DNA of 33,344 bases, taken from assembly GCA_022361155.1 (NCBI GenBank), contig JAKSBK010000006.1, positions 1-33,344 on the forward strand, written 5' to 3'. The notes under the pieces are model-generated. The model saw only the letters and a program-made list of their open reading frames with translations. It had not been told where the DNA came from and ran no database searches. This document shows, piece after piece, positions 3,136-26,132 of this stretch (position 1 is the first letter of the stretch; each line of letters begins with the position of its first letter). Source of the DNA: Pseudomonadota bacterium (lineage in GTDB: Bacteria; Myxococcota_A; Polyangia; Polyangiales; JAKSBK01). The translations under genes were made by a program, and so were the position numbers.

Positions 3136-3767
3136 TAGTAGTCCTCTCGCGACGCCACGAATTGCAGGCGCATGCCGGATACGTAGTCGAACTCGGCGTA
3201 CAGCCGCCCCGCTCGTAGGCCGGCGTCACCGTAGTGCCAGCGGGTCACGGTGCTCTGATCGCCGTAGGCCCGCTGCCGTTCGTCGAGTTCTTCGTGAGCG
3301 ACCTCGACATCGTTGCCGGTGTACCCGTCGGGCATCTGCGAGAGCGGTACCGACAGCACGATCTTGCTGCCCGCCGGCGCCTGCATCTCGGGACTGAGCT
3401 GCAAGGTGGGCCCAAGAGGTGTCTGGTCGTCGTAGTTCGAGAAGGCGGTCGTGGGCTTGGCCTGCATGAACACGACGTCGGTCGCTTGCCGCAAGGTGCC
3501 GGCGGGAATCACGATCCTCGCCCCGTTGTCGAGCTCGAGCGTGGCACCGCCGCGACCCACGGCGACCGTCATCTGCTTGCCACCCCGTCGCTGCACCGGA
3601 GCGACGGGGCCAGGGGCGGTCGCGTCATCCCCGCTCCGGTTTGCCATGCGCTCATGTCCCGCGCCGGCCCGGTTGGCCTTGGCTGTGGGCCCCGACGTGC
3701 CCGCCGCGCCTCCGCAGCCAATCCAGGCTATGCTTGACAATGCGATCGACCAACGTGCGACGTTCAT
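3132..3767 (-). CDS. Predicted lipoprotein with ZU5-like domain
   Basis: A 211-aa protein. Residues 1-17 form a lipoprotein signal (basic start, hydrophobic core, IAWIGC then Gly-Gly). A polar Ala/Gly linker runs to about residue 65. It is followed by a beta-rich domain with the pattern GGATLELDNGARIVIPAGTL, then PLGPTLQLSPE and KIVLSVPL. That layout resembles ZU5-type domains often found in secreted proteins of myxobacteria. The ATG at 3767 has GGTGGGA about 6 nt upstream, which decides the start; an open frame continues upstream to 3887 without signal-like sequence. It is divergent from the DUF58 gene across a region holding a 9-bp inverted repeat. The lipoprotein call is firm; ZU5-like is tentative. 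Confidence 0.8.
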   Translation of the reverse strand: MNVARWSIALSSIAWIGCGGAAGTSGPTAKANRAGAGHERMANRSGDDATAPGPVAPVQRRGGKQMTVAVGRGGATLELDNGARIVIPAGTLRQATDVVFMQAKPTTAFSNYDDQTPLGPTLQLSPEMQAPAGSKIVLSVPLSQMPDGYTGNDVEVAHEELDERQRAYGDQSTVTRWHYGDAGLRAGRLYAEFDYVSGMRLQFVASREDYY

Positions 3768-3828
3768 TTCATCCCACCTTCGCGCCCCCGCCACCCGGGC
3801 TTGCCCCTTTGCGCGAGGAGCGCGCCAA

Positions 3829-3861
3829 CGTACCTGCAACGGCCGCACAGCCGCAGGTACG
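3829..3861. promoter_or_regulatory. Inverted repeat, candidate operator in a divergent region
   Basis: Perfect 9-bp arms CGTACCTGC (3829-3837) and GCAGGTACG (3853-3861) are separated by 15 bp. It lies between the lipoprotein gene (start 3767, leftward) and the DUF58 gene (start 3905, rightward), 62 bp from one start and 43 bp from the other. This suits a dimeric regulator of one or both genes. It could also form a hairpin in the DUF58 leader mRNA. Confidence 0.45.
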
Positions 3862-3904
3862 GGACGCGCGCCCGAAGCCGCCGGCATAGATCGGGGGACA
3901 GCTC

Positions 3905-5350
3905 TTGGCCCTCATGCAGTCTAGTGTAAGACAAGGTCAGGCAACAGCCCGTTTGGCAACACAGCGAGGCCCACACGGGCACGCGCTTGCGTTCCAGTTG
4001 ATCAAGAACTTTCCAACAAAGCTCCTGGGATCGCTCGCTCGTCGCCTCGGCGCTCTGCGCCGGGCGAAGCCGCTGTGGACACGCTGGGCCGACTGGTTTC
4101 CGCTGACGCCCTTGGGCCTGCTGTTTGTGGCCGGCGCCGCCTTCGTTCTTCGCGTCATGGCCCACGCGCAGCTCGACATGGTGCTGTTGGTGGTCGGGTA
4201 TGCGGGCTTGGGACTGGGCGCGCTGAGCTTGGCCGCCGTGGCCCTGGGAGCGCTCGGACTCAGGTGGCGGCTGCGCCGGCAAGAGGCGAGCGAGGCCGAG
4301 CCGCTGTTGGCCGAGACCGCGGCGAGCCTGCCTACGAGCTTCGAGCTGCCCGCCTTGACCTGGCTGCCGCTCCTGCACCTCGACTGGCAATGGCTCGAGC
4401 CCGAAGGCGTAGAAGTGCAGCCGGAAACGAGCGCCGCTCGCCGAGCAGAGCAGGTGAGGTTCCAGCGCAGGGGCCAGTTTCGCCGGACAGTTCGACGCAT
4501 CGTGGTCAGCGACGTGTTCGGGCTGGCCGCGCTCGGCCTCAGGCAGCAGGCCAGCCTGGCGCTCGATGTCCTACCCCACCTGGGCAAGCTCGCGCGTACT
4601 CCGGTGCTGCGCTCGCTCAGTGGTGGCGACGACCTGCCGCATCCCATGGGAGTCGAGTCCGGGGACCGGCTCGAGCTGCACCGTTACGTCCCGGGGGATC
4701 CGGCGCGGTTCATTCACTGGAAGGCCTATGGGCGCACGCGAAAGCTCATGATTCGCAAACCCGAGCGTGCCCTGGCTCAGGCTCAACGCACCGCGGGCTA
4801 CTTGGTGGCGGGGCCTTTGGACGAGGCGAGCGCCGCCGTTGCGCGAATGGCCCTGGAGCGCAACCTTCTTGGCCGAGATTGGGTCTTCGGTAGCGACGAG
4901 GACCCCTTTCCCGTGACCCGGCTCGAAGCCGCCCTGGCGACCCTGATGCGTTCGGGCGGCCTGCACGAACAAGGTGCGCTGGGGCTCGAGGAGTTCCTGC
5001 GCCAGGCCGAGCGCAGCGGCCCGGTGAGCGCGGTCGTGTTCGTCCCCGCGCAGCCGGGGTCGTGGCTGGATCGGGCCGTCGCGGCTTCGCGCAAGCCCGG
5101 TCGCACCGTGCGCTTCGTCGTCGGCGTGGACGGCATCGCCTCGGCAAGCCAGCCAACCCATGTGGCACGGCTGCTCTTGTTGCCGCAAGCATCGGGCCAC
5201 ACCCCCGCGGCGCCGCTACGCGAAGTGCTGCGCAGGCTCGGCGAAACGCGCTGCCAGGTCAGCATCTACGATCGTGTTTCGGGACGCCAGCTCAGCGAGC
5301 TTCACCTGCGCGATCAGGGTGGGCGCCAGGGCGTATCGGGGGGAGCGTGA
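3905..5350 (+). CDS. DUF58 domain membrane protein
   Basis: A 481-aa protein. Two hydrophobic helices (about residues 69-85 and 92-118) anchor it to the inner membrane. The DUF58 signature follows: GDRLELHRYVPGD at 253-265, then RFIHWKAYGRTRKLMIRKPE at 268-287, which matches the family motif Y-x2-GD-x2-R-x-IHWK-x2-AR. DUF58 proteins are usually encoded with MoxR ATPases and transglutaminase proteins, as here, and act in envelope assembly or maturation in ways not well defined. The first possible start is TTG 3905, with GGGGGA 6 nt upstream; ATG 3914 and TTG 3998 are alternatives. The stop overlaps the next gene's start by 4 bp (GTGA), implying translational coupling. The family call is firm. 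Confidence 0.88.
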   Translation: MALMQSSVRQGQATARLATQRGPHGHALAFQLIKNFPTKLLGSLARRLGALRRAKPLWTRWADWFPLTPLGLLFVAGAAFVLRVMAHAQLDMVLLVVGYAGLGLGALSLAAVALGALGLRWRLRRQEASEAEPLLAETAASLPTSFELPALTWLPLLHLDWQWLEPEGVEVQPETSAARRAEQVRFQRRGQFRRTVRRIVVSDVFGLAALGLRQQASLALDVLPHLGKLARTPVLRSLSGGDDLPHPMGVESGDRLELHRYVPGDPARFIHWKAYGRTRKLMIRKPERALAQAQRTAGYLVAGPLDEASAAVARMALERNLLGRDWVFGSDEDPFPVTRLEAALATLMRSGGLHEQGALGLEEFLRQAERSGPVSAVVFVPAQPGSWLDRAVAASRKPGRTVRFVVGVDGIASASQPTHVARLLLLPQASGHTPAAPLREVLRRLGETRCQVSIYDRVSGRQLSELHLRDQGGRQGVSGGA

Positions 5351-7533
5351 ACGCTCGCATCAGGTCCTCGGAAGCAGACGAGCGCAACCTCACCCGAGTG
5401 CTGCGGTTTGTGGTGTACCTGCTGGGGGGCCTCGCTTTTGCACTGCCCCTGACGCTGCCCTATGTCGCTCTCGGGGCAGCGCTGGGCGCTGCAGCCGGCT
5501 CGGAGCTCGGCCTGCGGCTGGCACGCTCGCGCTGGCGGCTGCACGCCATCGTGGCGGCTGCGGCGGCAGGATCCGGCCTCGTGCTCGTGCTGCGCGCGGC
5601 GCTCGTGGGCAGCGCCACGCTCGCCGCTAAGCTCGGGCCCACTTCGGCGCTCGCGGTCGGAGAGAGCATCGGGTTCGGCCTGGGTGCGCTGTGTGCCGCA
5701 ACGGGCCTGCGCGCCGCCGCGGCTCGCTGGCGCTCGATCGCAGTGCTCGAAGTCGCGTGCGTGGCGTTGATCTTCGCGCAGCTGGTCGCCGCCCACCGGC
5801 GGGGAGCGATCAACCGGCCCTTCGAGATCGCCGATCCGATCATCGAAGCGGGCGGCGATCCGGGGCTCGTGTTTCTCGGGCTCGGCGCCGTGACGGCGGC
5901 CGTCATGCTGCTCGTGCTCCTGAGCGAACGCAGCATCGCGCGCGCGGGCTTGCACATCGCGGTCGTCAGCGCCTTGGTGCTGTTTGTTGCGACCAGCACC
6001 GAACACTTCAACTTGTTCGCAAAGAAGCAACAAGATGCCTTGGGGCTGCGGGGAAAGCCCGACAAGACGAGCAAAGGCGACGAACGAGGAGGACGCAACC
6101 GCAACCGCAGCGGCAGCAATCAGCGAGATCTCGATTTTCGGGACAACTACCACGAGTCCAATCGCCAGACTCCGGTGGCGGTGGTGCTGCTGCACGACGA
6201 TTACTCGCCGCCGAACGGCATGTACTACTTCCGGCAAGGCGCCTTCAGCCAGTTCAACGGGCGCCGGCTGGTGCGCGCAACCCGACACGGCCTGGACTCC
6301 GACGTCGCCGCGAGCTTTCCGGCCGAGCCCACGACCGTGGCCGAGGTACCGAACGCCGAAGGGGATCGAGCGACCCTCGACACGACCGTGGTGCTTCTTA
6401 CCGACCACATGCAGCCTTTCGGTCTGGAGTCGCCGATCCGGATGGCTCCCGCACCCAACCCCGATCCCACGCGCTTCAGGCGCGCGTACAGGGTGACCTC
6501 GGCGGTATTGACCAGCGACGCCTTTGCGCTGCTGGGACGCGAAGCAGGAGGCGAGAAGCTCACCGGAGAAGCCCTCGACCATTACACCGGTCTGCCGGAG
6601 GACCCACGCTACGGGGCACTGGCACACGAGATCCTCGATCGGGTGGACCCTCATCTGCGACACGATCCCATGGTACGGGCGCTCGCCATCGCGTCGTACC
6701 TGAGCAAGCAGGGGGTCTACAGCCTGCGAAGTCGTCATGCCCGCGCGGCCGATCCCACCGCCGACTTCTTGTTTGGAGACAAGACCGGCTACTGTGTACA
6801 CTTCGCCCATGCCTCGGCATACCTGATGCGCGCCCTGGGCATGCCTGCCCGCGTGGCCACGGGCTACGTCGTGGACGAGTCCTCGCGGCAGGGCGGTTCT
6901 GCGATCCTGCTTTCCGGGGAAAACTCCCATGCCTGGCCCGAGCTCTACCTCGAAGGTACGGGCTGGGTGATCGCCGACGTGTTTCCGGAGCGCAGCCTGG
7001 ATGCTGCGATGCAGCCGCCCGATCCCGACTTGCAGCGCCTGCTCGGACAGATGGCACGTGGCGAGCGACCGCTGCTGCAGAGCGAAGAACGCAGCTTCAA
7101 GCCCATCCTGGCCTCGCTCCGCGAAGCATCGCTCGCCCTGGCTCGCTTCCTGCTCGTTGCACTCGTGCTCGCGCTGGCGCTGCTGTACGGCGTCAAGACC
7201 TGGCGTCGCATTGCGCCGAGCTTCGCCGGGCCAGGCGCCATGGCGCGCGTGGCGTACCGTGCGGAGCTCGACCGACTTGCCGAGCTGCAGCTCAGGCGGC
7301 GTGCAGGCGAATCGCGCGAGCGCTTCGCGACCCGGATCGAGGCTACCTGCCCGTCGTTCGCGGGTCTCACGCGCTGGCACCTGGCAGCCGCGTACGGCAG
7401 CCGGAGAAACCCCGAATCCTCCGAGCTGCAGCTCAGCGCTCACCGGGTGCGCAGCGAGCTGCGTCGCAGTGTGCCGTGGTGGCGTAGGATGCTTGGTATC
7501 TTGATCCCGTGGTCATGGCTGCAAAGTCGCTGA
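5347..7533 (+). CDS. Transglutaminase-like membrane protein (TgpA type)
   Basis: A 728-aa protein. The N-terminal 220 residues contain about six hydrophobic helices. A charged, flexible stretch follows (about 236-262, rich in Lys, Arg, Asn and Gly), then an extracytoplasmic domain with a transglutaminase core: Cys483 in TGYCVHFA, His528 in ENSHAWPEL and Asp544 in IADVFPE form the expected catalytic triad. One more helix (about 597-615) and a cytoplasmic tail close the protein. This is the layout of TgpA (DUF3488/transglutaminase/DUF4129) proteins. The start is GTG 5347, fused to the DUF58 stop (GTGA), with a G-rich Shine-Dalgarno-like run just upstream. The open frame reaches back to 5062 inside the DUF58 gene, but that part is out-of-frame coding. 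It is probably a peptide-acting enzyme of the periplasm; the substrate is unknown. Confidence 0.9.
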   Translation: MNARIRSSEADERNLTRVLRFVVYLLGGLAFALPLTLPYVALGAALGAAAGSELGLRLARSRWRLHAIVAAAAAGSGLVLVLRAALVGSATLAAKLGPTSALAVGESIGFGLGALCAATGLRAAAARWRSIAVLEVACVALIFAQLVAAHRRGAINRPFEIADPIIEAGGDPGLVFLGLGAVTAAVMLLVLLSERSIARAGLHIAVVSALVLFVATSTEHFNLFAKKQQDALGLRGKPDKTSKGDERGGRNRNRSGSNQRDLDFRDNYHESNRQTPVAVVLLHDDYSPPNGMYYFRQGAFSQFNGRRLVRATRHGLDSDVAASFPAEPTTVAEVPNAEGDRATLDTTVVLLTDHMQPFGLESPIRMAPAPNPDPTRFRRAYRVTSAVLTSDAFALLGREAGGEKLTGEALDHYTGLPEDPRYGALAHEILDRVDPHLRHDPMVRALAIASYLSKQGVYSLRSRHARAADPTADFLFGDKTGYCVHFAHASAYLMRALGMPARVATGYVVDESSRQGGSAILLSGENSHAWPELYLEGTGWVIADVFPERSLDAAMQPPDPDLQRLLGQMARGERPLLQSEERSFKPILASLREASLALARFLLVALVLALALLYGVKTWRRIAPSFAGPGAMARVAYRAELDRLAELQLRRRAGESRERFATRIEATCPSFAGLTRWHLAAAYGSRRNPESSELQLSAHRVRSELRRSVPWWRRMLGILIPWSWLQSR

Positions 7534-10705: not shown

Positions 10706-13336
10706 CTAATTGCTAGCCGAGGCTGGCCGTCCCTTCTTGTGCTTCTTGCGGCGCGACTTGCGGCCCTTGCCCCCGTTGGAGCTCTTGTGGCCGGAGGCTC
10801 TCTTCGACTTCACCGGCGCGTCCCTGGCCTCGACTTCGGTCTCGGCCCCGACTTCGGTCTTGGCCTCGGCTCCGGTCTGACGGGCTTCGGCTTGGGGCGC
10901 GCCGGAAGCCTGCTCGCCGGCTCCACTCGCCACCGTCGCGGCGCCTGGCGACCCTGCGCTGGCCTCGCCCGGCGCTGCCGGCGCTGCAGCGGTGGGGCTC
11001 GGCTCCGGACTGCCGCTCGTCTTTGCCGCACCCCCGGCAGCTACGGCTGCGCCGCTTCCCTGTTCCTTGGTGCCGCCCAATCCCAATGCTGTGCGCCGGT
11101 CCGAGTACGCAGAATAGGCCAGGTACGAGCTGACCAGAAAGATGCCGAACGAGACGATCATGCCCATCGCGGTGAAATGATCGTCGGTCCAGGGCCAGAA
11201 CGTGGGCGCCATGCAGGTGAGCATGGACATCGCACAGGCCACGATGGCCGGTAGTTTGTGACGCTTCCAGAGCAGTCCGTACGCCAGCAGGAAACCGTAG
11301 TAGTAGCAGGTGAGCTCCGCCATGACCGGAATCAGGCCCGCACCGACGCAGGCCGCCACCCAGTCCTTTTCTCGCTCGACCGCGATGGCCACCATGAACA
11401 GCACGCTCGCGATCAGCAAAAGGAGCAGGGGCTTGCGCGCTGCGTAGGTCTCACGCTTGCGTTCTTTCCAATCGCCGAACGGATCGGACAAGTCGTCGTT
11501 GCGCATGCCGATGGCACGTTTGTCGAACTCGAACCCGATCGCCGTCTTCAGGCCCATGTTGTTGGTGAGCGGAGTATCCAGGTGCTTCGCGCTGTTCTGC
11601 GCGAACACGACCCACGAGCTCAGGCTTCCCGTGGCCACTGCGGAAAGCGGCATGAGCGCCGCCAGCGCGACCAAACAGCCTGCGGCAAAGCGTTTGTGCT
11701 CCGAAGATAGGACCCACCGGCGCTCACGCACCATGTACATCAGGGCCTTGAGGATCATGGCGATGACGACGAAGCCGGGGAAGATCCGCAGCAGCGCCGC
11801 GTAGGTCAGTGCGAGCCCGCCGCTGAACATCTTGTCCTTGCGCAGCAGGCACAGCCCGAGCACCAGGAACGCTATCCAGTCCATCCGCAGGTAGGCGCCG
11901 CCGGTCCAGAAGTAGCGCGCGGGGAAATTCGTACCCCACCAAAGCAACGCCACGCACATGCTGCGCCAGCCAAAGGCCCACCACACGGCCGCCCACATGC
12001 CGATCAGCAGCACGGAATCAACGATGCCCAGACCGATGATCGTGTTCCAGCTCTTGATCGGGAAGGTCGCTGCAAGCGCCCGGCCGGCGATGGTCCATAC
12101 CGGGGTGGCGTTGAAGCCGTGGTCGGTTTGCGACTGATCCCAGCGATCGGCCGGAAAGAAGCCGCGGAACTTGCGTATGTCTGCGCGAAACTCCTCCCAG
12201 CGCTCCTTGCTGAAGTGTCGCGTGCACAGCGTGGGGTCCTTGATGATGTGTTCGGTGCTGCCGAGCTCGTTGGTGACCAGGTTGCGCATCTTGCGGTCCT
12301 TGACGCGCTGCAGGTGTCCGTCGGCAATGTCCGCGGCGGTCGTGCATTCGTACAGGCGCGAGTACCCGAGCTCGGGCGCGTACTTTGCGCCCACGTAGTA
12401 GTGGTAGTGCTCCCAGATGTGAATGTAGTGGTCGTAGTGGAAGTGACCCAGATTCCAGAACAGCAAGAAGGAAAAGATGCCGAATCCTGCCAGCAAACCG
12501 TCGCGCAGCTTCTTGAGGTAGTGCGGGCGGCCGCGGCGGTGCAAAAGGAAAGTCCACAACAGCAGCAGGCCGCCGAGCCCGGCGGTCAGCCCTTTGAGGA
12601 ACACCACGACGCTGTCGTCGATGGCAGCCCAACCGGTCTTCTCGGGCGGAAAGGTCAGCGCGGGTGACCAGTTGGCCGGCTGGTTGCAGTAGGCCTGGAG
12701 CTCGGACACCGAGTAGAACTTGTCGCCGCCTTGCGGCATGACCCGCAGGTAGCGGACGGTTTCCACGCGCGGCAGCCGGCCCCAGCGCGTGCGCAGGCCC
12801 TGAGCGGGAAACACGGCAACGGCCGTCCACAGGGTCTGGTAGCTCTGCCCGTCCAGCGAACCCTGGATCTCGTAGATGTCGTTGTTGTCTCCTTGGACGA
12901 GCACCGCGCCAACATTGCGCGGGCGCCCAAAGTCGACCATCAGGCCGGTCGTCTCCTTTTTGAGCACGACGGCCGACGGCGACGACCAGAAGCTGCTTTC
13001 TACGGCGAGCACCCCGTCGGCGGCCACCCTGGGGTTGCCCTTGAGGCCGTCACCGTAGACGCGAGCTGTCTGAACCACATTGGTCGAGTCGCAGCCGCTG
13101 CTGGACCAGGCCCCGCTCGGCACGGGCGTCGCGGGCTGGGCGCCAGGCGAGCCGGGAGCCGGGGCTCCTTCTTTCTTGGCGGCCGCCGCGGCAGCCTCGG
13201 GGTTCGTGGCGGTTTGCTGCGCTCCAAGGGGCCCGCTGCAGGTCAGGACAGCAGCCGACGCAACGAGCAGATACTGTGCATAGAAACAGGTAGCGCGAGG
13301 TCTCTGCTGCGCCGCTTGTTTCGAGGACGTAGTCAC
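10706..13336 (-). CDS. F5/8-type C domain fused to GT-C-like membrane protein
   Basis: An 876-aa protein. Residues 18-40 are a signal sequence or signal anchor. An Ala/Pro linker leads to an F5/8-type C (discoidin) domain at about 82-217 (WSSP, LMVDFGRP, YEIQGSLDG, RYLRVMPQG, SVSELQAYC), a fold that usually binds carbohydrate or lipid. A polytopic part starts at about 243, with some ten hydrophobic segments. An acidic and aromatic motif (YDHYIHIWEHYHYY, residues 301-314) sits in the first large loop, where GT-C glycosyltransferases carry their acidic residues. Segments such as GGAYLRMDW and LLRIFPGFV recall the GT87/DUF2029 group. The tail (about 760-876) is Ala/Gly/Glu-rich and ends in a Lys/Arg cluster. 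The start is GTG 13336 with GGAAGG close upstream. It is last in a leftward operon, 91 bp after the barrel gene. The discoidin call is firm; the transferase role is inferred. Confidence 0.8.
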   Translation of the reverse strand: MTTSSKQAAQQRPRATCFYAQYLLVASAAVLTCSGPLGAQQTATNPEAAAAAAKKEGAPAPGSPGAQPATPVPSGAWSSSGCDSTNVVQTARVYGDGLKGNPRVAADGVLAVESSFWSSPSAVVLKKETTGLMVDFGRPRNVGAVLVQGDNNDIYEIQGSLDGQSYQTLWTAVAVFPAQGLRTRWGRLPRVETVRYLRVMPQGGDKFYSVSELQAYCNQPANWSPALTFPPEKTGWAAIDDSVVVFLKGLTAGLGGLLLLWTFLLHRRGRPHYLKKLRDGLLAGFGIFSFLLFWNLGHFHYDHYIHIWEHYHYYVGAKYAPELGYSRLYECTTAADIADGHLQRVKDRKMRNLVTNELGSTEHIIKDPTLCTRHFSKERWEEFRADIRKFRGFFPADRWDQSQTDHGFNATPVWTIAGRALAATFPIKSWNTIIGLGIVDSVLLIGMWAAVWWAFGWRSMCVALLWWGTNFPARYFWTGGAYLRMDWIAFLVLGLCLLRKDKMFSGGLALTYAALLRIFPGFVVIAMILKALMYMVRERRWVLSSEHKRFAAGCLVALAALMPLSAVATGSLSSWVVFAQNSAKHLDTPLTNNMGLKTAIGFEFDKRAIGMRNDDLSDPFGDWKERKRETYAARKPLLLLLIASVLFMVAIAVEREKDWVAACVGAGLIPVMAELTCYYYGFLLAYGLLWKRHKLPAIVACAMSMLTCMAPTFWPWTDDHFTAMGMIVSFGIFLVSSYLAYSAYSDRRTALGLGGTKEQGSGAAVAAGGAAKTSGSPEPSPTAAAPAAPGEASAGSPGAATVASGAGEQASGAPQAEARQTGAEAKTEVGAETEVEARDAPVKSKRASGHKSSNGGKGRKSRRKKHKKGRPASASN

Positions 13337-13427
13337 GATCCTTCCGCCGCGGGGACCCGGGCGGGTCGCCAACGCTGCCCGACATAGACGCTCGCCTCCC
13401 AAAGCGCAACTATGACCTCCGAGGGCG

Positions 13428-14267
13428 TCACAGCCTCACATACAGCGAGCCCCTCAGGTACGGGCCCGAGCGGGAGAGCGAACCGAGCTCGGCCGTGCGC
13501 GGCACGATCGCGTCCGGGGCCAGATCCGCAGGCTGCAAGCGCAGCGTGGTAGAGCTGGAAAGCAAGAATCCCGCCTCGAAGAGCAGGCCCGCTCGGGTCT
13601 GCCGCATGAACCTGATGCCGGCCCGGCCGAGCCACCCGGCAGGGGTCTCGAGCCTGGCTCCCAGACCGAGCATCGCTATCAACGCAGTGCCCTGGTCCTT
13701 GTAACGTGAAGCCGGCAGCGAGGGATCGAAAGGGCCCTGGGGCAAGACCGGAGCGTCGCCGCCGAGCCGGCCGAGCTGCATCCGGAGCAGGCTCGCGCCC
13801 AGACCCAACCGCAGCTCGGGCCAGAGCCACGCGGCGACTTGATGGCGCAGCGAAAGCGACGCGCTGAACGTGTGTGTGCGCAGGCGAGCCAGCTGCTGGC
13901 GCTGGAATTGCGCTTCGTCGGCAGCGAGCTTCCAGCTGAGCTCGACCGCGAGCACACTGTGCGTCGTGGGTCGCATCCCATCGTAGCCCACAAAGGCTCC
14001 GGCGTTCCTGGAGACATCGTCGTCGGAATACAGATCGAATCCGTGGCTCCCGATCTCGATGGCCTGGATTTCCAGGCCGAGTGAAAGCGGATTGCTCGAC
14101 TCGGTGCGCGCGCCAGGGCTTGGCTCTGGTCCGGCGCTCGGTCCAGAGGTCGACTGGCTGCGCGCAACAGGTGCGTGCAGCAGGACGGCCGTCATGCAGC
14201 ACGCCGCGCCCAGCGCGCGCGCAAGCCGGTGCTTGGGGACGCATGCTGGTTCGTCTGATCGGTTCAC
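13428..14267 (-). CDS. Probable outer-membrane beta-barrel protein
   Basis: A 279-aa protein. A signal peptide (KHRLARALG, a hydrophobic stretch, cleavage near VARSQ at about 34) leads into a short Ser/Pro linker. Alternating polar/hydrophobic strands rich in Leu, Arg and aromatics follow: HSVLAVELSWKLA, THTFSASLSLRHQVAAWL, PELRLGLGASLL, and a final RGSLYVRL ending in a hydrophobic residue, as barrel proteins often do. About ten strands can be guessed. GTG 14267 overlaps the upstream lipoprotein stop by 4 bp (GTGA), which sets the start and implies coupling; the frame stays open to 14546 inside that gene. It may provide an outer-membrane pore or anchor for the two propeller lipoproteins encoded before it. 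The barrel call is from pattern only. Confidence 0.7.
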   Translation of the reverse strand: MNRSDEPACVPKHRLARALGAACCMTAVLLHAPVARSQSTSGPSAGPEPSPGARTESSNPLSLGLEIQAIEIGSHGFDLYSDDDVSRNAGAFVGYDGMRPTTHSVLAVELSWKLAADEAQFQRQQLARLRTHTFSASLSLRHQVAAWLWPELRLGLGASLLRMQLGRLGGDAPVLPQGPFDPSLPASRYKDQGTALIAMLGLGARLETPAGWLGRAGIRFMRQTRAGLLFEAGFLLSSSTTLRLQPADLAPDAIVPRTAELGSLSRSGPYLRGSLYVRL

Positions 14268-15904
14268 GGCATGCCTCGCTTGGCGTCCAGCTCGATCGCC
14301 GTGTCCGGACCCCGCAACAGGTCTGCCAGCAGAAAGCCCCGCAGCGCGATCGCTTCGCCGCGAGCAGGTTCCATGCGATCGAGCAACGTCAGGTGACCCC
14401 CAAAGGTGTTGTGTACGACCGCAACGGTGGCTGCGGCCGGGGAAAGCAAGACCTGGGCGATGCTCGCATCGAGCTCGACCTGCTGGGCGTGAAAGCTGTC
14501 GAGATCCAGCATACCGAGCTGGCGCTGCCCCTTGGCTCCCACCCACAGTCGCGCCTCGTCGGTGTGGAAGCTCGTCTGAGCCAAGTCGAGGTGCGCGTCG
14601 ATGGGCGCGACCGTCCGGTCCTGCACCCGTAGCAGGCTAAGCGCCGGAGCCGGACCCTGACTCGAATGGTGCACGAGCAACACCACGCCTCGCTCGAGCA
14701 TCGGGACCACCCGCTCGACCGGCGCGGCCAGCCGCAGGGTTTCCAGGTTGCGACCTTTACGGGACTCGATCTGTTGGAGGCTGAGGAAGCTCAGCCAAAC
14801 GCTTCCGTTCCCGTAGAGCAGCGCCTCGGGCTTGCCCGAGTCGCGCCCGTCGTCGAGCATCAGCAATCGACTCGCCGCCGTCTCGAGGGCCACGCGCGTC
14901 GAGCGGCTCGATGCGGCATCGATCACCCACAGGTCGTTGCTGCCCGGCGACAGCACCAGCAGCTGGGCGCCCTCGGGCGAGCGGTACAGGCCCATGTCGC
15001 TGGGGGTACGCCCGGCGCCAACCTGGTTGATGGAGACGCGAAAGTCTCCGCGGGCCGACTCGGGGTCCTCGTGCAGCTGCAGGGCGTAGGCGTCGTTCGA
15101 CTGATTGCCGCGCACGTAGATGCGCGCATCGTCCACGCCGAACAGCACCTGTTCGGGGAGACTGGGGTTGCCTGCGGTGGTGAGCTGAACCGTGTGCTCG
15201 CTCAGCGTCTCGAGGTCGAGCAAGGTCACGTAGGAGTCAAACAAGACCACCGCCAAGGTGCGCGTGGTGCCCGCGATCGTCATCCCGGGCGAAAAGACCA
15301 CGCGACGCGGCGCTTCACCGAAGCTGCGCAGCGTGCGGCGGTGCGGGTTGTCCTCGGAGGGTTGCTGTTGCAGGTCGACGATCGCTATCTCGTTTCGATT
15401 GAACAGCAGCTGGCCTCCACCCGAGACGCCGCGGAAGTAGAGCAGGGCATAGCGCCCGTCGTGCGACTGCTCGATGGCATCGAACGGCGCTGCTATCTCG
15501 TAGCGGGCTCGCGGCGTGTTTCCTTCGACGCCCAGCACCGCGAGCTCGGCCGGAAGGGGGGCCGAGCCGGCTCGGGCCGGTCCGCCCGCACACACGACCA
15601 AGAGCTCCTCGGTTGCATCCGCGGCGCTTGTTGCGCGGTGCACGCTCAGCCTTGGCTCGAGCGGCAGATCGACCCGCTCGGTCCGTGGCTGTGGATCGGC
15701 GAGATCGAGGCGGTGGGCCACGTGCGAGGTTTGGTTGATGAACACGACCTGAGTGCCGAGCAGCGTGGCCTCGGCGTGAAACACTTGAGGCTCGTCGAAG
15801 AAAGGCGGGCGGTCACCGCAGCCGGCGAGCAACAGCATCCCGACCCCAACCCAGCTCCCAACACGGCACCGGGCGCGCGGGCGCAAAGGCAAAGCGTACG
15901 TCAT
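14264..15904 (-). CDS. Lipoprotein with WD40/YVTN-like beta-propeller
   Basis: A 546-aa protein. The lipoprotein signal is clear: Arg-rich start, hydrophobic core and LLAGC with Cys29. The mature part reads as a propeller of repeated strands with DGRYALLYF, RRVVFSPGMT, LAVVLFDSYVTLLDLETL, ARIYVRGNQ, SNDLWVIDAAS, RLLMLDDGRD and GMLDLDSF; this alternation of value, label and time-course-like phrases is typical of YVTN/WD40-type repeats. No catalytic residues are apparent. It lies 10 bp after the upstream lipoprotein gene and overlaps the barrel gene by 4 bp, so all are co-transcribed. The Shine-Dalgarno site before ATG 15904 is weak (GAGGCC). It is probably anchored in the outer membrane as a binding scaffold. 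Confidence 0.8.
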   Translation of the reverse strand: MTYALPLRPRARCRVGSWVGVGMLLLAGCGDRPPFFDEPQVFHAEATLLGTQVVFINQTSHVAHRLDLADPQPRTERVDLPLEPRLSVHRATSAADATEELLVVCAGGPARAGSAPLPAELAVLGVEGNTPRARYEIAAPFDAIEQSHDGRYALLYFRGVSGGGQLLFNRNEIAIVDLQQQPSEDNPHRRTLRSFGEAPRRVVFSPGMTIAGTTRTLAVVLFDSYVTLLDLETLSEHTVQLTTAGNPSLPEQVLFGVDDARIYVRGNQSNDAYALQLHEDPESARGDFRVSINQVGAGRTPSDMGLYRSPEGAQLLVLSPGSNDLWVIDAASSRSTRVALETAASRLLMLDDGRDSGKPEALLYGNGSVWLSFLSLQQIESRKGRNLETLRLAAPVERVVPMLERGVVLLVHHSSQGPAPALSLLRVQDRTVAPIDAHLDLAQTSFHTDEARLWVGAKGQRQLGMLDLDSFHAQQVELDASIAQVLLSPAAATVAVVHNTFGGHLTLLDRMEPARGEAIALRGFLLADLLRGPDTAIELDAKRGMP

Positions 15905-15914
15905 CTTATGGGCC

Positions 15915-17822
15915 TCACTTGCGTATCCGGCTGTTGAGCTCGAAACCCGTTACGGTCTGCGCCTCACCCGAGTTCCAGTGCACGAAGGTCACGCGTCCCT
16001 CGGGGTGCTCCTGACCCACGAACGCGTGCTCCGTGCCCGGCACCGCACCCACCGAAAGGGGAGGGCTGCCAAGCCGTGTGGTCGAAATCTGGAGGCTCTC
16101 GAGCGCGATGCGCTGAACCTCACGCACGTGCTGCAGATCGTTGCGAATCAGCACGAAAAGATGGCTGTTCGCGGGCATGACCGCGAAAGGCCCAACATCG
16201 GCTTGAGTCACCTGCAGCTTGACGAAACCGCTCGCGATGTTGAGCAGGCTGTAGGCAAACGACCGATCGATGACTTGGTCCGGGGTGAGGCCGGGCTCGT
16301 TCGGATCGGCCGGGTCGCGCGTGTGCACGATGAGCGCCGTTCGGGCGTCGGGTGCGATGGCCACGCCCTTGATGGGCTTGCGAAGCCGGACACCGCGAAC
16401 GGTGTCGGCCAGCGGATTGAGCTCGACGAGGCCGATACGCTCCACGGCAAAGGCTGTCGTGTACACAAGCGCCGAATGGTTGTCGGGCGTGATGCTAACC
16501 GAGCCGACGATGTCGCCTGCGAGCGGGATGCTGCGCACCAGACCGGGGTCGCTGAACCCGCTCGGAATTGGAATCCGCAGCAGCAGCTGGGGATCGCTCA
16601 GGACGGCCAGCGCGAACTCACCGCTCGGAGCCAAATCGAGATCGGTCACGGCCACCGGTTGCCTCGCCGTGGGCGTCCGTGACCTGCGCTGCGCCGAGTT
16701 GGGCGCGTCGGTCGCGTCCAGGCCTGCATCGAGCGGTTGCCAAGCGTCGCTGCGCGCATCGAGCTCGGCGTCCAGCGCCTGCACGGCATCGACGTGCGCG
16801 TCGCTTGCGGCGTCCGCGCCCGCGTCCGGGGCGACGGGAGGCGACGGCGCGGGCCCGAGCGCTCCGGCGACTTCACTCAGCTCGAGCGAGGTGACCGCAC
16901 CCGAGGACAGCTCGACCAGCCGCACCGTACTGTCGTGCTCGCGGCGAGCGATCGCGTAGCGACCGTCGTTCGTTATCGAGACGTCTTTGGAAAACGCGCC
17001 GGTGTCGGGCCCGAGCGGGATCAAGCGTGCGATCGAGGCTTGCCTGAGCGAGCCGAGCGGCAGCTCCGAGATGCCGTCTTCGGTAACCACGAATGCGGTC
17101 GAGCCGTCGTCGCTGAAATGCACCGAGAGCGGCCGGAAGCCCACGGTGACGTTGACCGCCTCCTCCGCACCCGGCGCCAAGGTTGCGACCGTGAGGTCCT
17201 GAAAGCTGCCCGTGGGATCACCGGGCCTGCGGGCATGGATGTCGAAGTACAGCACCGCGTGGCTCCCCGTGGGGCTGACCGCGATCCGGTTGCAGCCGGC
17301 AACCACAGGCAGCGTGTGTGTGGTCGTGCGGCCCTTTTCGGTACGCAGAACGGTCGCGTCGTCGGAAGCCACGTTGAGCACGATGGCCTGGTCGCCAGTG
17401 CCAAAGGTGCGCACCACCCGCGGCTTGTCGCCCGCCTCGACGATTTCGATCGCCAGCGAGCGCGCATCGATGACCGCCACCAAGTTGCTCTTCGGGTTGG
17501 CCACGTAGACCTGGTTTTCGCCCGCTTGCGGCTGCTCGAAATTGGTCGGCAGCTCGATCTCGGGCGGCCGTGGTGCCATCGGTGGGATCCCCGCTGCACC
17601 GCCAATGCCGAACCCTCCAGGAGCTCCGTGCGGGCCGGTCGGGGAGCCCCCGCCGAGGCCCGGGCGCGGTGCAGGCGTACGCGGATCCGCGTGCGCCGCC
17701 CCGGCCCGCTCCTCGGACGAACCGCAACCCGCAGCAAGCGCTGCGATCGCACCCAGGATCCAGGCTCCGCGCCGAGCGCAAGCCAACGGTCTGCCCGGGG
17801 CGGCCCCGCGGCCATTCTCCAC
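15915..17822 (-). CDS. Lipoprotein beta-propeller with Asp/Ala-rich insertion
   Basis: A 635-aa protein, counted from GTG 17822. The signal has ARRGAW, then a hydrophobic core and LAAGC with Cys33. A Gly/Pro-rich linker precedes a YVTN-like propeller: NQVYVANPKSNLVAVIDARS, GCNRIAVSPTGSHAVLYFD, STAFVVTEDGISELPL, VSITNDGRYAIA, VSITPDNHSALVYTT, GVAIAPDARTALIVHT. Between blades lies an insertion of about 45 residues dominated by Asp-Ala (encoded at about 16703-16836). It resembles the downstream lipoprotein, so the pair may be an old duplication. It is first in the operon. The start is uncertain: the frame is open to 18062, and ATG 17981 or GTG 18062 would give a long non-signal-like N-terminus, so 17822, preceded by a G-run, is preferred. 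Confidence 0.78.
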   Translation of the reverse strand: MENGRGAAPGRPLACARRGAWILGAIAALAAGCGSSEERAGAAHADPRTPAPRPGLGGGSPTGPHGAPGGFGIGGAAGIPPMAPRPPEIELPTNFEQPQAGENQVYVANPKSNLVAVIDARSLAIEIVEAGDKPRVVRTFGTGDQAIVLNVASDDATVLRTEKGRTTTHTLPVVAGCNRIAVSPTGSHAVLYFDIHARRPGDPTGSFQDLTVATLAPGAEEAVNVTVGFRPLSVHFSDDGSTAFVVTEDGISELPLGSLRQASIARLIPLGPDTGAFSKDVSITNDGRYAIARREHDSTVRLVELSSGAVTSLELSEVAGALGPAPSPPVAPDAGADAASDAHVDAVQALDAELDARSDAWQPLDAGLDATDAPNSAQRRSRTPTARQPVAVTDLDLAPSGEFALAVLSDPQLLLRIPIPSGFSDPGLVRSIPLAGDIVGSVSITPDNHSALVYTTAFAVERIGLVELNPLADTVRGVRLRKPIKGVAIAPDARTALIVHTRDPADPNEPGLTPDQVIDRSFAYSLLNIASGFVKLQVTQADVGPFAVMPANSHLFVLIRNDLQHVREVQRIALESLQISTTRLGSPPLSVGAVPGTEHAFVGQEHPEGRVTFVHWNSGEAQTVTGFELNSRIRK

Positions 17823-18069
17823 CCCCAACCCCCCGACATCTGTGTCGCGCTCGGTTGCGACCCTGGCAACACTTGCCCCCTGGCACGCAGGCTTTGCGTC
17901 CCTGCTGCGCCCTGCACCTTGCCGCTGCCGCCTGTGCGTACCCGGCCAACACCCACGATCCCGCTGTGCTCTTGCCTGCATGACGCTACCTGAAGCGAGA
18001 AGTATGCCACACTGGTCGCCGCAGAGGTCCGGGCACGCACGAGCTACAGACTCGGTGCCCACTCGGGAG

Positions 18070-18397: not shown

Positions 18398-21300
18398 ATG
18401 GCGAACCTGACGCGCCGACGCGAAGCCGGAGGACGGCCCGCGCCGCCGGACGCAGTACGAAGCCGGCCGGTGGTCGCGCGGCGTTCGGCCGGCTCGACCG
18501 CGGCAGGTGTTGTGCTTGCGGCGCTGGGCGCGTTCCTGTGCGCGTTGTCCGCTCCGCTCTGGTGGTTTGGCAGCGGAATACTGGTGGCGCTGGCTACCGG
18601 GTTGTGGGTGTCCACACGGCCCCGGCATGCGGAGCTGCGCGCCTGGTGGCTGGCGCCGCGCCACCTGGGTCCCCTCGAGATCGTCCCGCTCAAGACGATG
18701 CTCGAGCTCGGCTCGCTGGCGCTGCTGGTGTGCATCAGCATCCAGATGCTCGGCGAGCTCGCGGGCGGCGATCGCCCGATCTCTCACGATCATCCCGTCC
18801 ATTACTTCAAGGCCTGGCAGCTCGAGCGCCATCTCGTGCACGAAGGTCGCGTGCTCGGTTGGACGCACCGCTGGTTCGCGGGCTACCCGGTCAACTACCT
18901 GTACCCGTTTCTCGGCGACCTGTGGATCAACGCCGTCCGCTGGCTGGGGTTCGGCTCGCTGAGCCTGAGCCAGGCGTACGGGATCGGAATCTGGCTCTTT
19001 TATCTGTTCACGGGCTACGCGCTTTACCGCTACGGCTCCGAAGCGGCTGGGCGTGCCGTAGGTCTGCTCGCAGCGCTGGCGTTCATGACGGATACCTCCG
19101 CCTTTCGCGAGGGCGGCTGGACGTACGCGGTCCACTTCGGTGTTTGGCCCCAGAGCCTTTCGCTTGCTTTCGGCCTGCTGGGGCTCTCGCGTCTGCCCGC
19201 GCTGGTGAGCGGGCGCAGGTTGGCCCCCGTGGCGGGCTTCGGGCTGTGCCTTGGGCTCGCGTTGCTTGCGCACCCCGTGCAGCTCTTGCTTTTGCCTCTC
19301 GTTGTGCTGCTGGCAGGGGTCGCGGCGGCTTTTTCCCCGCATGCTCGGGTTGGCGCGGCGCTGCTGCGAGTCCTCGTTGGGACCCTGCTGGCCCTGGTCG
19401 TTTCGAGCGCCTGGCTGCTGCCTTTCCTGTCAAGCCGCCGCTTCGCCTCGTCCATGGGTCTGTGGTGGAAGAGCACCCACGAGCTTGGCTACGATTTGAT
19501 GCAGCTCGATGTCTTCGAGGGCACGCTCGGCTTGGTGCTCGCGTTCGGTGTGCTCGGAATTGTCCTCATGCTGCGCAGCCGCGACGTGCTGCTGCTGTTC
19601 ACGGCGCTGATCGCCCTGTGCGTTCCCGTCCTCTTCGGCAGCACGTTCGTGGACGAGTTTCACTTGCCGGCGCTGTCGAGCTCCTTGCTCAAGGTGCAGT
19701 TCGTACGCATGTCCACGATGGTCAAACCGTTCTGGTTCGTGGCGGCGGCCTACCTCGTCGTCGCAGTCACGCGTGGCCTGCCACGGCTGCGGCCACGATC
19801 GGCGAGCAGCGAGGCGGATCCGGGCGCCCGTGGGACCCCGGAAGGGACACAAGAGTCCGGCTTTGCGAAGCTGCCCGTGTCCAGGCGGACCTCGAGTCGG
19901 GCGCAGCCCGCGCCGCGCTACATGGCGGCGGCCTTTGTGCTAGCCGTCCTTTTGAGCCCGATCGCGCTCGCCTTCGGGCAAGCCTACTGGAGCACGCACG
20001 TCGAACGCCATCTCGAGCTCGCGAGTCAGCGACCCTACGGCCGGGAGCGTCGTGCCCTGGTGCGCTGGGCCCGCCAAGCCCTGCCATCGGATGTGTTCTA
20101 CCGCGTCGCCCTCGTCCCCGCCCACAAGCACGATCACAGCTTGATGGATCTGGCGACGCAAATCGACAAGCCCATCTTCAAGACAGGTTTCACCCCCTGT
20201 TCCAACTTCGTGTTCAAGCTCGGGGGCTACGATCGCGAAACCCTGGAAAGCGTCAATGTCCGCTACGCCATCGCGCAGCGGCGCTTGCCGGCGAGCGATT
20301 TCGAGCTGTTGCGCGAGTTCGGGCCCCTGAGGTTCTATCGCTTCAAAGGCTGGAGGCCGGAGCCCTTCCGAATCCTGCAGGGTGGTGGTCGGGTCGACGT
20401 GCTGCGCTTTGACGACGAAGAGATCGTGTTGCGCGCGCACCGGGGTGCGTTCGGCATGCTGCGCTTGAACGTTTCGTACTTCCCGCGCTGGCGCGCCTAC
20501 CACGACGCCAAGCGCATCCGCATCATGGCGAGCTCGCTCGACAACAAGGCTCGGCCAAGCGCGTTCATCACCACGGAGCTGCTGCCGGGCAGCTACCGGT
20601 TCGTGTTCGAGCGTCATTGGGTCGACCATCTGGCCGCGGCGCTCTCGGGGCTGGCTTTGCTCTTGGTCCTGGCCCTGTGGTTGGCCGACCGGCGGCCAGG
20701 CTCGTTTGCGTGGCTGAGCAGGCCGCTTGCGTGGCTCACCGAGAAGGCCGAGCGCCTTTGCGAGCCTGCCTGGGCGCGCGCGCGCTTGGCGGCAGGGCTG
20801 TGCCTGGCAGCCGCGTTGCTGTTGGTCGGGGTAGCGCTGGCGCTGTGGCAGCCGGCTATCGACCTCGCGCCTTCGGGCAAGCGCGAGCGGGTAAGGCGGG
20901 TGCGCTACGATTTCGTCGAACGCCTGGCGCACGCCGAGGCGCAGGTGCGCCACCGCAAGAGGAAGCGTCGCTGCCAGGCGCACAAGGACCAGTTCCTGTG
21001 CCCGAATCGACGCGGCACCTTCTTGCCCGGCCAGTACGTCGCTTCCGAGCCCGCCACCATCGAGGAATACACCATGGTGCGCTGCGTTCGGGCCACCCCC
21101 GACAGCGGAGGGACACTGGAAATCAGCTTCCGCGACGTTCCCCGAGGCGAGGCACTGGTGGGCTACTACGGCGTTCCACACGCGTCCGAGATCGGCCCTC
21201 GGGAATCGTTTGATTTCAGCGTCCGAGTCGACGGCAGGCGGATACACCGCGGCGCTGCCAGACCCAACACCGGCCGCCGCTGGCTAATCGAGAAGCTCCA

Positions 21301-21406
21301 ATCGAACAAGGCACGCAAGCGAGCCGACGTGACGCTGGCCATCCACGCGAAGCACGTCCGCCGGCACAGGTTCTGCTTCAACCTGCAGATGGTGGACTTG
21401 CATTAG
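18398..21406 (+). CDS. Large GT-C-like membrane protein, PTPS-related type
   Basis: A 1002-aa protein. After a basic cytoplasmic N-terminus come roughly 11-13 hydrophobic helices (from about 33 to 530, plus ones near 750 and 805). The first periplasmic loop has SHDHPVHYFKAWQL (129-142) followed by RWFAGYPVNYLYPFLGDLW (158-176), the hallmark of the '6-pyruvoyl-tetrahydropterin synthase-related' membrane domain (PF10131), which belongs to the GT-C-like integral membrane glycosyltransferases; the pterin name is historical. A periplasmic beta-rich region and a basic C-terminal domain with three Cys follow. ATG 18398 has ACAGGG about 9 nt upstream. It is monocistronic and divergent from the discoidin/propeller operon. 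It probably transfers sugars from lipid-linked donors outside the membrane; the acceptor is unknown. Confidence 0.82.
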   Translation: MANLTRRREAGGRPAPPDAVRSRPVVARRSAGSTAAGVVLAALGAFLCALSAPLWWFGSGILVALATGLWVSTRPRHAELRAWWLAPRHLGPLEIVPLKTMLELGSLALLVCISIQMLGELAGGDRPISHDHPVHYFKAWQLERHLVHEGRVLGWTHRWFAGYPVNYLYPFLGDLWINAVRWLGFGSLSLSQAYGIGIWLFYLFTGYALYRYGSEAAGRAVGLLAALAFMTDTSAFREGGWTYAVHFGVWPQSLSLAFGLLGLSRLPALVSGRRLAPVAGFGLCLGLALLAHPVQLLLLPLVVLLAGVAAAFSPHARVGAALLRVLVGTLLALVVSSAWLLPFLSSRRFASSMGLWWKSTHELGYDLMQLDVFEGTLGLVLAFGVLGIVLMLRSRDVLLLFTALIALCVPVLFGSTFVDEFHLPALSSSLLKVQFVRMSTMVKPFWFVAAAYLVVAVTRGLPRLRPRSASSEADPGARGTPEGTQESGFAKLPVSRRTSSRAQPAPRYMAAAFVLAVLLSPIALAFGQAYWSTHVERHLELASQRPYGRERRALVRWARQALPSDVFYRVALVPAHKHDHSLMDLATQIDKPIFKTGFTPCSNFVFKLGGYDRETLESVNVRYAIAQRRLPASDFELLREFGPLRFYRFKGWRPEPFRILQGGGRVDVLRFDDEEIVLRAHRGAFGMLRLNVSYFPRWRAYHDAKRIRIMASSLDNKARPSAFITTELLPGSYRFVFERHWVDHLAAALSGLALLLVLALWLADRRPGSFAWLSRPLAWLTEKAERLCEPAWARARLAAGLCLAAALLLVGVALALWQPAIDLAPSGKRERVRRVRYDFVERLAHAEAQVRHRKRKRRCQAHKDQFLCPNRRGTFLPGQYVASEPATIEEYTMVRCVRATPDSGGTLEISFRDVPRGEALVGYYGVPHASEIGPRESFDFSVRVDGRRIHRGAARPNTGRRWLIEKLQSNKARKRADVTLAIHAKHVRRHRFCFNLQMVDLH

Positions 21407-24091: not shown

Positions 24092-25555
24092 ATGAGTCTG
24101 GTCGACGACGTGCGAGTGCACTACCAGCAGCCGCAGGGCTTGTTCGTTGCTGGCAAGCAGGTACCGGCGGCTTCGGGAGCAACGTTGGAGATCGTCAATC
24201 CTGCGACATCGGAGCCTTTGGCGCGCGTGGCCGCCGCGCAGGCACAGGACGTGGACCTGGCGGTGGCTGCCGCCCGGGAGGCCTTCGAACGTGACGACTG
24301 GCGCGGTCTCGCACCCAGCAAGCGCGAGCAACTGTTGTGGCGCATCGCCGAATTGCTCCAAGAGCACGCCGATGAGCTCGGTGTGATCGAGAGCCTCAAC
24401 AACGGCAAGACCCTCAGCGAGGGCAGAGGTGACGCGGGCGCGGCAGCTGACTGCTTTCGCTACTACGCGGGATCGGTGCGCCGCCTGAGGGGCGAAACGA
24501 TGGATGTCGACGCGCCCAGTTTGGTCTACACCCTGCGCGAGCCCATCGGCGTGTGCGGCCAGATCGTGCCCTGGAACTATCCCCTGCTGATGGCCAGCTG
24601 GAAGGTCGCCCCTGCGCTTGCGTGCGGCTGCTGCGTGTTGCTCAAGCCGAGCGAATGGACCCCGCTGACCGCCCTGCGGCTGGCCGATCTCTGCAAGCAA
24701 GCGGGAGTGCCGGACGGCGTCGTCAACGTATTGCCGGGCGACGGGCCGGTGGCGGGTGAGGCGATCGCCCGTCACATGGGCGTCGACAAGTTGGCCTTCA
24801 CCGGCTCGGTAGCGACCGCACGCAGCTTGCTCAAGGCCAGCGCCGAATCGAACCTCAAGAAACTGAGCCTCGAGCTCGGCGGCAAGTCGCCGCTGGTGGT
24901 GTTTCCGGACGCGGATCTGGATGCGGCCGCCAAGGCCGCGTTTTGGGGCATCTTCGCGAACAAGGGTGAGGTCTGCAGCGCGAGCTCTCGCTTGCTTGCG
25001 CACCGGGATATCAAGGAGCAGCTGGTCGATAGGCTGGCCAAGATGGCAACGACGATGCGGGTTGGCGATCCCCTGGATCCGGGCACCGAGATGGGAGCCA
25101 TCGCCAATTCCAAACAATACGACAAGATCATACGCTACCTCGAGCTGGGCAAGCAGCAGGGTGCACGGGTGGCCGCCGGAGGCCAGGCCCTGGGAGGCAA
25201 GGGCCTGTTCGTGCAGCCCACCGTGTTCGACGATGTGACGCCGGATATGACCGTGGCCAGCGAGGAGATCTTCGGGCCGGTGCTGTCGGTGCTCGGCTTC
25301 CAGCACGAGGAGCAGGCGCTCGAGATCGCCAACGCGAGCATGTACGGGCTGGTGGCTGCGGTGTTCACGAAAGACGTGTCCCGCGCCCACCGCGTGGCCA
25401 GGGGCCTACAGGCCGGGGTGGTATGGATCAACCGCTGGAACGGCTTCGACTGTGCGGCCCCGTTCGGTGGCGTCAAATACAGTGGCTGGGGCCGCGAGCT
25501 CGGCGAGCACGCGATCGATCTCTACACCCAGACGAAGTGCGTCTGGGTCGCTTGA
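24092..25555 (+). CDS. NAD(P)-dependent aldehyde dehydrogenase
   Basis: A 487-aa protein of the ALDH superfamily with all catalytic residues in place: Asn162 (VPWNYP), Lys185 (LLKPSEWTPL, cofactor binding), Glu261 (LELGGKSP) and Cys295 (GEVCSASSR). It also has EEIFGPVL and the C-terminal PFGGVKYSGWGRELG. The last motif and the overall length fit betaine-aldehyde or broad-range ALDHs (ALDH2/BetB-like) that oxidise aldehydes to acids; the exact substrate cannot be read from sequence. NKGEVC replaces the common NQGQVC, a mild variation. ATG 24092 has GAGGTAG 5 nt upstream. The 3' end overlaps the convergent MYXO-CTERM-like gene by 83 bp. No choline or betaine genes are nearby, so a betB label is not justified. 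Confidence 0.93.
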   Translation: MSLVDDVRVHYQQPQGLFVAGKQVPAASGATLEIVNPATSEPLARVAAAQAQDVDLAVAAAREAFERDDWRGLAPSKREQLLWRIAELLQEHADELGVIESLNNGKTLSEGRGDAGAAADCFRYYAGSVRRLRGETMDVDAPSLVYTLREPIGVCGQIVPWNYPLLMASWKVAPALACGCCVLLKPSEWTPLTALRLADLCKQAGVPDGVVNVLPGDGPVAGEAIARHMGVDKLAFTGSVATARSLLKASAESNLKKLSLELGGKSPLVVFPDADLDAAAKAAFWGIFANKGEVCSASSRLLAHRDIKEQLVDRLAKMATTMRVGDPLDPGTEMGAIANSKQYDKIIRYLELGKQQGARVAAGGQALGGKGLFVQPTVFDDVTPDMTVASEEIFGPVLSVLGFQHEEQALEIANASMYGLVAAVFTKDVSRAHRVARGLQAGVVWINRWNGFDCAAPFGGVKYSGWGRELGEHAIDLYTQTKCVWVA

Positions 25556-26000: not shown

Positions 26001-26132
26001 TGGTATACATGTCGATGAGGGCACTCCGTAGTTCGAATCAAGGCGGCAGCCGGCGCGCGGTCGCCCCAACTGGCAGCCACCGCTCACGGTGGCAAGCGGC
26101 CGCGGTGTGCGCCCGGAAAGGGATCTGCGATC

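Follow-up and report, generated by a model that had tools for sequence, protein, structure and literature searches.

The locus examined here raises the question of what a discoidin (F5/8-type C) module does at the N-terminus of a GT-C-like membrane protein. The gene lies in a stretch of 33,344 nucleotides of myxobacterial DNA (contig JAKSBK010000006.1, positions 1 to 33,344; hereafter the window), and an earlier examination of the letters without database searches, referred to below as the sequence-only reading, had proposed that the module could hold an acceptor glycan or lipid next to the active site. Our analysis showed that proteins pairing a discoidin with a GT-C domain form an old and conserved myxobacterial family; the two folds, the fact that they are fused, the conservation of the fusion across the phylum and an acid-tyrosine pair in the membrane domain are established by computation. 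The window protein is very probably an enzyme that transfers sugars to glycans on the outside of the cell membrane. As to how it does so, we regard it as probable, if well short of certain, that it is a polyprenyl-phosphate-sugar-dependent GT-C enzyme of the GT87/PimE kind, with a periplasmic discoidin module most likely binding the acceptor.

Two folds in one open reading frame

The open frame extends over 10706-13402 on the reverse strand and is uninterrupted throughout. The GTG start at 13336, which agrees with the end coordinate of the sequence-only reading, is preceded by GGAAGGATC, where GGAAGG is the ribosome-binding sequence. The gene and its parts are as follows.

10706-13336, reverse strand: whole gene, 876 amino acids, comprising signal sequence, linker, discoidin module, extra transmembrane helix, GT-C domain and low-complexity tail
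13208-13336, reverse strand: N-terminal signal sequence, about residues 1-43, read from the sequence with the cleavage site placed by eye
12686-13093, reverse strand: discoidin module (F5/8-type C, similar to carbohydrate-binding module family 32, CBM32), residues 82-217, from Pfam, alignment, model and structure comparison
12539-12613, reverse strand: extra transmembrane helix, residues 242-266, between the discoidin module and the GT-C core, a helix in the model
11081-12529, reverse strand: GT-C glycosyltransferase domain, PimE/GT87-like, residues 270-752, from Pfam on relatives, model and structure comparison
12383-12418, reverse strand: first juxtamembrane helix (JM1), residues 307-318, with the predicted catalytic E309 (codon 12410-12412) and Y313
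10709-11080, reverse strand: Ala/Gly/Pro-rich low-complexity tail, basic at its end, residues 753-876, from sequence

An AlphaFold model was built on an alignment of 37 sequences, which includes the window protein and in which 35 rows carry the module. This model had a predicted local distance difference test score (pLDDT) of 90.6 and a predicted template modelling score (pTM) of 0.82; an earlier model on 7 sequences was poor (pLDDT 62.3), yet indicated the same folds. Comparison of the model with the Protein Data Bank (PDB), with 50 matches listed, showed that the jelly-roll fold is present. The module, a confident beta-sandwich within residues 92-216, aligned with CBM32/discoidin and fucose-binding structures at Z 12.9-15.2. 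The best CBM32 alignments were with that of AlyQ (7d29; Z 15.2, root-mean-square deviation (rmsd) 2.4 A, 126 residues) and with 4a42 (Z 15.1), and the pneumococcal fucose-binding module 2j1r and the pectin-binding module 2jd9 aligned at Z 13.6 and 13.4, respectively. The AlphaFold run that the sequence-only reading had proposed as a check thus gave a jelly-roll for the N-terminal region and no other fold, and Cys82 and Cys217 are located at the ends of the domain, where that reading had put them.

At the level of sequence, residues 101-212 of the window protein match the discoidin family PF00754 at E 2e-4, a weak single-sequence match of 21.9 bits against the curated cut-off of 28.2, and the same family was matched at E<=0.01 in 25 of the 37 aligned proteins, with a best value of 1.1e-10. 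Sequence searches of solved structures were weak, the best match being 4a42 at E 0.035 and earlier ones having E 0.13-1.4. A chance match to the discoidin family was considered and ruled out by the recurrence of the profile matches in 25 of the 37 proteins together with the confident fold. Seven positions of the module (D150, D153, S160, G180, R184, D205 and E212) are invariant in all 35 module-bearing rows. Cys82 and Cys217 are both found in 25 of these rows and are both missing in 9; the remaining row (L057) lacks the first one only because it was trimmed one residue past that cysteine. Many members of the F5/8 type C family, not all, have a cysteine pair joining the N- and C-terminal ends, and the joint presence or absence seen here is the pattern expected of a disulphide.

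The membrane domain aligned with PimE (9dm5) at Z 18.4 and rmsd 3.9 A over 350 residues, and with ALG3 at Z 15.6. A subunit of the glycosylphosphatidylinositol (GPI) transamidase, which we take to be PIG-U, also aligned with it (Z 13.3-14.1; 9ub7 chain B, Z 14.1), and EmbC and AftD were not among the matches listed, an absence that excludes nothing. The alignment with PimE, which comprises model residues 199-670, starts at residue 274 of the protein, past the extra transmembrane helix. The enzyme part of the window protein is named by neither Pfam nor NCBIfam. Among its relatives, two without the module, L019 (34.0 bits) and L020 (35.2 bits), passed the GT87 family PF09594 (cut-off 25), and two with the module, L046 and L049, reached 18.1 and 18.6 bits, under the cut-off. 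The GT-C-like membrane domain claimed in the sequence-only reading was thereby borne out, by the PimE-like fold of the model and by the GT87 matches in relatives.

In the model, E309 stands at the start, that is the tip, of the helix comprising residues 307-318, and Y313 is located four residues on. Passages of PMC12041525 on the active site of PimE describe D58, located at the JM1 tip with a hydrogen bond to Y62, as the proposed catalytic base, and report that the substitutions D58A, D58N and Y62A abolished activity. Of the 37 aligned rows, 29 have Asp at position 309 and 8 have Glu, with Glu in the clade of the window protein and Asp in most other members; Y313 is present in all 37. An acid at 309 together with Y313 was also found in all 17 rows of a second set, including 6 without the N-terminal module. 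The 37 rows further keep H306, K/R318, Y319, E322, D405, H406, N409 and D440. By analogy with PimE, the loop of acidic and aromatic residues that the sequence-only reading had pointed out is likely the active-site loop, with E309 and Y313 corresponding to D58 and Y62. Its location was given wrongly in that reading, as YDHYIHIWEHYHYY comprises residues 301-314 (window 12395-12436) and lies outside the 12550-13336 interval to which the feature had been assigned.

Conservation of the fusion in the phylum

To learn how widely the fusion occurs, genome profile searches covering the phylum were carried out; a contig pattern scan reached close relatives only. A search at the level of the order detected relatives in 8 of 28 genomes, and a profile of the module matched 35 of 282 genomes of the phylum at E<=1e-8, the window's own genome being counted in both cases. 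Thirty loci were retrieved, 5 of them being the window and genes already known; 29 carry the module and the GT-C domain in one frame and 1 (L037) is cut by a contig end. With the further loci L060-L062, the fusion is found in 32 of the 35 matching genomes, and the remaining three are accounted for by the contig-cut L037, an AftB-like protein (L063) and an SGNH protein (L064). The relatives that bear names are metagenome-assembled genomes, such as Sandaracinaceae bacterium and Myxococcales bacterium, mostly labelled Myxococcota and in one case Pseudomonadota. A one-off fusion, a frame error or a misassembly is ruled out by the same domain order in many genomes and by the open frame. A mobile gene was also considered, and the module gave no match in the plasmid collection, a search of plasmids only.

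The module and the enzyme have been inherited together, as their divergence is correlated: pairwise identities of the two parts in 595 pairs gave r 0.71, a value reached in 0 of 2000 permutations (highest 0.24), and the mean pairwise identity is 38% for the module and 39% for the enzyme. In a tree of the GT-C part, the presence or absence of the module needs 2 changes, of which the starred branches force 1; this is compatible with a single origin but no proof of one, and the long branches of L023, L025 and L026 make the reading unsure. The N-terminal module is missing from six relatives (L019, L020 and L023-L026).

In its own 5.4-Mb genome, the window protein is the sole match to itself (E<=0.001), and no second module of this type was detected (E<=0.01). 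The same genome holds 4 further PF00754 matches, on contigs C187, C122 (two) and C332, and 2 further GT87 matches. The low-complexity tail is shorter in 6 close relatives than in the window protein.

The predicted reaction and the role of the module

The extra transmembrane helix (residues 242-266) is followed by the basic loop HRRGRPHYLKKLR, which by the positive-inside rule is probably cytoplasmic. Taken with the signal sequence and the helix itself, this places the module and the active-site loop probably on the same, periplasmic, side of the membrane. The model may therefore be described as a GT-C core joined to a beta-module on the extracytoplasmic side, with a sidedness that we infer. 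In the mechanism proposed, the extra helix would anchor the discoidin next to the active site, at the periplasmic surface of the inner membrane, and the module would keep the acceptor glycan, free or lipid-linked, in that place. E309, oriented by Y313, would deprotonate an acceptor hydroxyl, which would then attack C1 of the lipid-linked donor sugar. By such a reaction, presumably an inverting one, the sugar would pass, on the periplasmic side of the inner membrane, from a putative polyprenyl-phosphate carrier to the acceptor glycan.

Known systems provide likenesses for each part. PimE, a polyprenyl-phosphate-mannose-dependent mannosyltransferase that we place in GT87, resembles the window protein in a GT-C fold over about 350 residues, in an acid placed at the JM1 tip and in the Tyr at +4; since it aligns to the GT-C part only, nothing in PimE corresponds to the discoidin or the extra helix. 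EmbC, an arabinosyltransferase of mycobacteria that belongs to another GT family than the window protein, carries its module at the C-terminus. Its likeness is an extracytoplasmic sugar-binding module on a GT-C enzyme; in EmbC, according to PMC3044687, the lectin-like C-terminal module has Trp residues whose mutants lose acceptor binding and the extension of lipoarabinomannan. For the arabinofuranosyltransferase AftD of C. glutamicum, sections of PMC6034362 give a predicted carbohydrate-binding module at 619-740 and discuss it with a polygalacturonate-binding protein and a pneumococcal lectin, probably the same proteins as the 2jd9 and 2j1r matched by our model; this module is in the C-terminal half, and the enzyme is from actinobacteria. 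According to PMC11127046, the modules of EmbC and AftD make contact with the acceptor, and the module of the GT136 ribofuranosyltransferase ORF12, an immunoglobulin-like one located toward the C-terminus of an enzyme of another GT-C family, binds the acceptor glycan backbone. By analogy with EmbC, AftD and ORF12, the ligand of the discoidin in the window protein is likely the acceptor glycan, either free or lipid-linked.

The principle of a GT-C enzyme bearing a sugar-binding module has already been published (PMC3044687, PMC6034362 and PMC11127046). The sequence-only reading had stated that a wide occurrence of the fusion together with an earlier description would refute it. The fusion is indeed widespread in the phylum, and no description of a discoidin plus GT87-like fusion was found in the literature searched, most subscription journals lying outside it; the combination and its phylum-wide conservation therefore appear not to be described in that literature. 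They extend the rule of a GT-C glycosyltransferase with an acceptor-binding module, known from the actinobacterial arabinan enzymes and GT136, to discoidin and GT87-like partners conserved across a phylum. As the module is strongly conserved, the isolated domain could be used as a probe for the polymer built by these enzymes.

Several observations weigh against an acceptor-binding GT87-like enzyme and have to be set beside this evidence. The PF00754 score of the window protein is below the cut-off and the protein has no Pfam GT87 match at E<=1, and its putative catalytic residue is Glu where PimE has Asp. The discoidin folds 2yc2 (IFT25; Z 15.0) and 1tvg (PP25; Z 14.9), which we take not to be lectins, align with the module as well as CBM32 does, so that the fold by itself is no proof of glycan binding. 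The six relatives without the N-terminal module imply that catalysis need not depend on it, and the account in PMC11127046 has the ORF12 module apparently dispensable for catalysis under the conditions tested. Clustering of the unannotated neighbouring frames gave no glycan gene cluster common to the distant members, and a sequence motif typical of the module, DxNDxY (see below), is absent from the divergent module-plus-GT-C proteins L062 and L090.

Three other explanations were weighed. Instead of a sugar, the module might bind a partner protein, such as a large membrane protein encoded nearby, or might stabilise the GT-C core, being a docking or folding element; the joint divergence of module and enzyme, the mostly acidic, Arg and Gly character of the invariant module residues, and the equally good alignment of folds such as IFT25 are all consistent with this, as is the fact that 6 of 7 close loci retain the large membrane protein in the vicinity of the gene (the other, L010, being on a short contig). 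However, the module is kept in 16 distant members whose surrounding stretches (3.7-19.5 kb each) gave no match to a profile of that protein, and it is found on three GT-C families (GT87-like, AftB-like and PMT-like), at either end of the protein, which suits a common ligand better than a single partner. We consider this explanation unlikely, though it deserves to be kept in mind. That the module binds membrane lipid head groups in the manner of the factor VIII C2 domain, and so orients the enzyme or gathers a lipid-linked substrate, seems to us improbable. The C2 domain (3hnb) is among the Foldseek matches (E 5e-5, rank 7) and was top-ranked for the earlier, poorer model, and the substrates would be lipid-linked; but several CBM32 and fucose-binding modules outrank it once the better model is used, and a transmembrane helix already ties the module to the membrane.

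The PIG-U subunit of the GPI transamidase is a catalytically dead scaffold, and the GT-C-like domain might be one as well, given the alignment with 9ub7 chain B, which we take to be PIG-U, and a weak PIG-U match in L055 (15.5 bits, cut-off 24.5). We hold this to be highly improbable, because PimE aligns better and because the acid at 309, Y313 and the eight further positions listed above are kept in 37 of 37 rows.

The module on other proteins and the gene neighbourhood

When the module profile was widened, 43 of the 282 genomes were matched at E<=1e-4, and 12 of the 14 weakest rows were retrieved. Four of these 12 (L085, L086, L087 and L089) are AftB-like and carry the module at the C-terminus, one (L084, 897-2831, forward strand) is a PMT_2 protein (37.1 bits, cut-off 26.1) also with the module at its C-terminus, one (L090) is a module-plus-GT-C protein, and five (L091-L095) are ordinary-looking discoidins on single-helix proteins. 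In the last row, L088:2585-3100 (forward strand), a 172-amino-acid frame has one transmembrane helix and a discoidin with DxNDxY, the profile match spanning one stop codon. In the PDB, a joint profile of the five AftB-like proteins (the four above and L063) finds AftB with E 3e-42; their discoidin makes up the C-terminal 100 or so amino acids, with DGDDRY as the motif in L089. AftB, a terminal arabinofuranosyltransferase, is of a GT-C family different from that of the window protein, and the text of PMC12041299 on the mycobacterial enzyme describes a C-terminal periplasmic domain of mixed alpha/beta fold. L026 also carries the module at its C-terminus, with DANDDY read by eye.

The motif was picked after the rows had been inspected. 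All 35 aligned N-terminal modules have it in the form D.[NG]D.[YF], and all 7 modules that are C-terminal or membrane-anchored have it in the looser form D.[NGD]D.[YF] (L063 and L084-L089; L089 by the looser form only), whereas none of 9 ordinary discoidins (L091-L095, L001, L002, L003 and L005) has DxNDxY. The second half of the motif, GD..x[SA]x, is missing in L087. Together with the divergent proteins L062 and L090, the SGNH proteins L064 and L065 lack DxNDxY, which argues against a strict signature. Comparison by hhalign gave E 1e-9 to 4e-6 for the C-terminal modules of L063, L026, L084 and L085; the ordinary discoidin L001 had E 0.038, but another, L092, had E 1.3e-9, so that this comparison cannot separate the module type and the following idea rests on the motif. 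In Myxococcota, one discoidin type (approximately DxNDxY ... GDxxYS) might serve as a common address label for membrane glycan enzymes that are otherwise unrelated, steering all of them to one extracytoplasmic polymer. This suggestion, which is tentative and which we regard as doubtful, would cover the GT87-like enzymes (N-terminal module; C-terminal in L026), the AftB-like and PMT-like enzymes (C-terminal module) and, with a distant version, AlgX-like SGNH proteins. In L027 (the L065 site) and L064, a discoidin-like module and transmembrane helices are followed by an SGNH/AlgX-like domain, whose Pfam scores are above the cut-offs in L064 and just below them in L027; these two proteins are possibly glycan O-acyltransferases.

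The large polytopic membrane protein mentioned above, of about 1000 amino acids, is encoded at window 18398-21406 on the forward strand; the one close locus of the seven where it was not seen (L010) is a contig of 4916 bases. It has no Pfam family over the cut-off, with a sub-threshold PTPS_related match (23.9 bits) in the L007 homologue, and is possibly a second membrane glycan enzyme. By BLAST, a sulfatase-type membrane protein adjoins the gene in 4 close loci (L007, L008, L009 and L011, the last with its duplicate L070); in L007, the locus on which Pfam was run, the frame at 3291-5600 (reverse strand) has a sulfatase domain and a MopE-type metal-binding motif under the cut-off. A transporter read by eye as belonging to the major facilitator superfamily is found in 3 close loci. 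No conserved operon was seen beyond the close group; the clustering of neighbours, whose cluster of 17 loci was read only as a whole, mixes in antisense frames.

Further frames were observed in passing. Five distant loci (L060, L066, L069, L075 and L077) share a neighbour that looks by eye like DnaK. In the window, three consecutive frames at 13428-18062 (reverse strand), lying between the two membrane proteins, have no Pfam match at E<=1, and two of them have NCBIfam beta-propeller-repeat matches under the cut-offs. A frame at window 25473-26144 (reverse strand) contains a repeated AQAAVPP-like unit, probably a low-complexity repeat.

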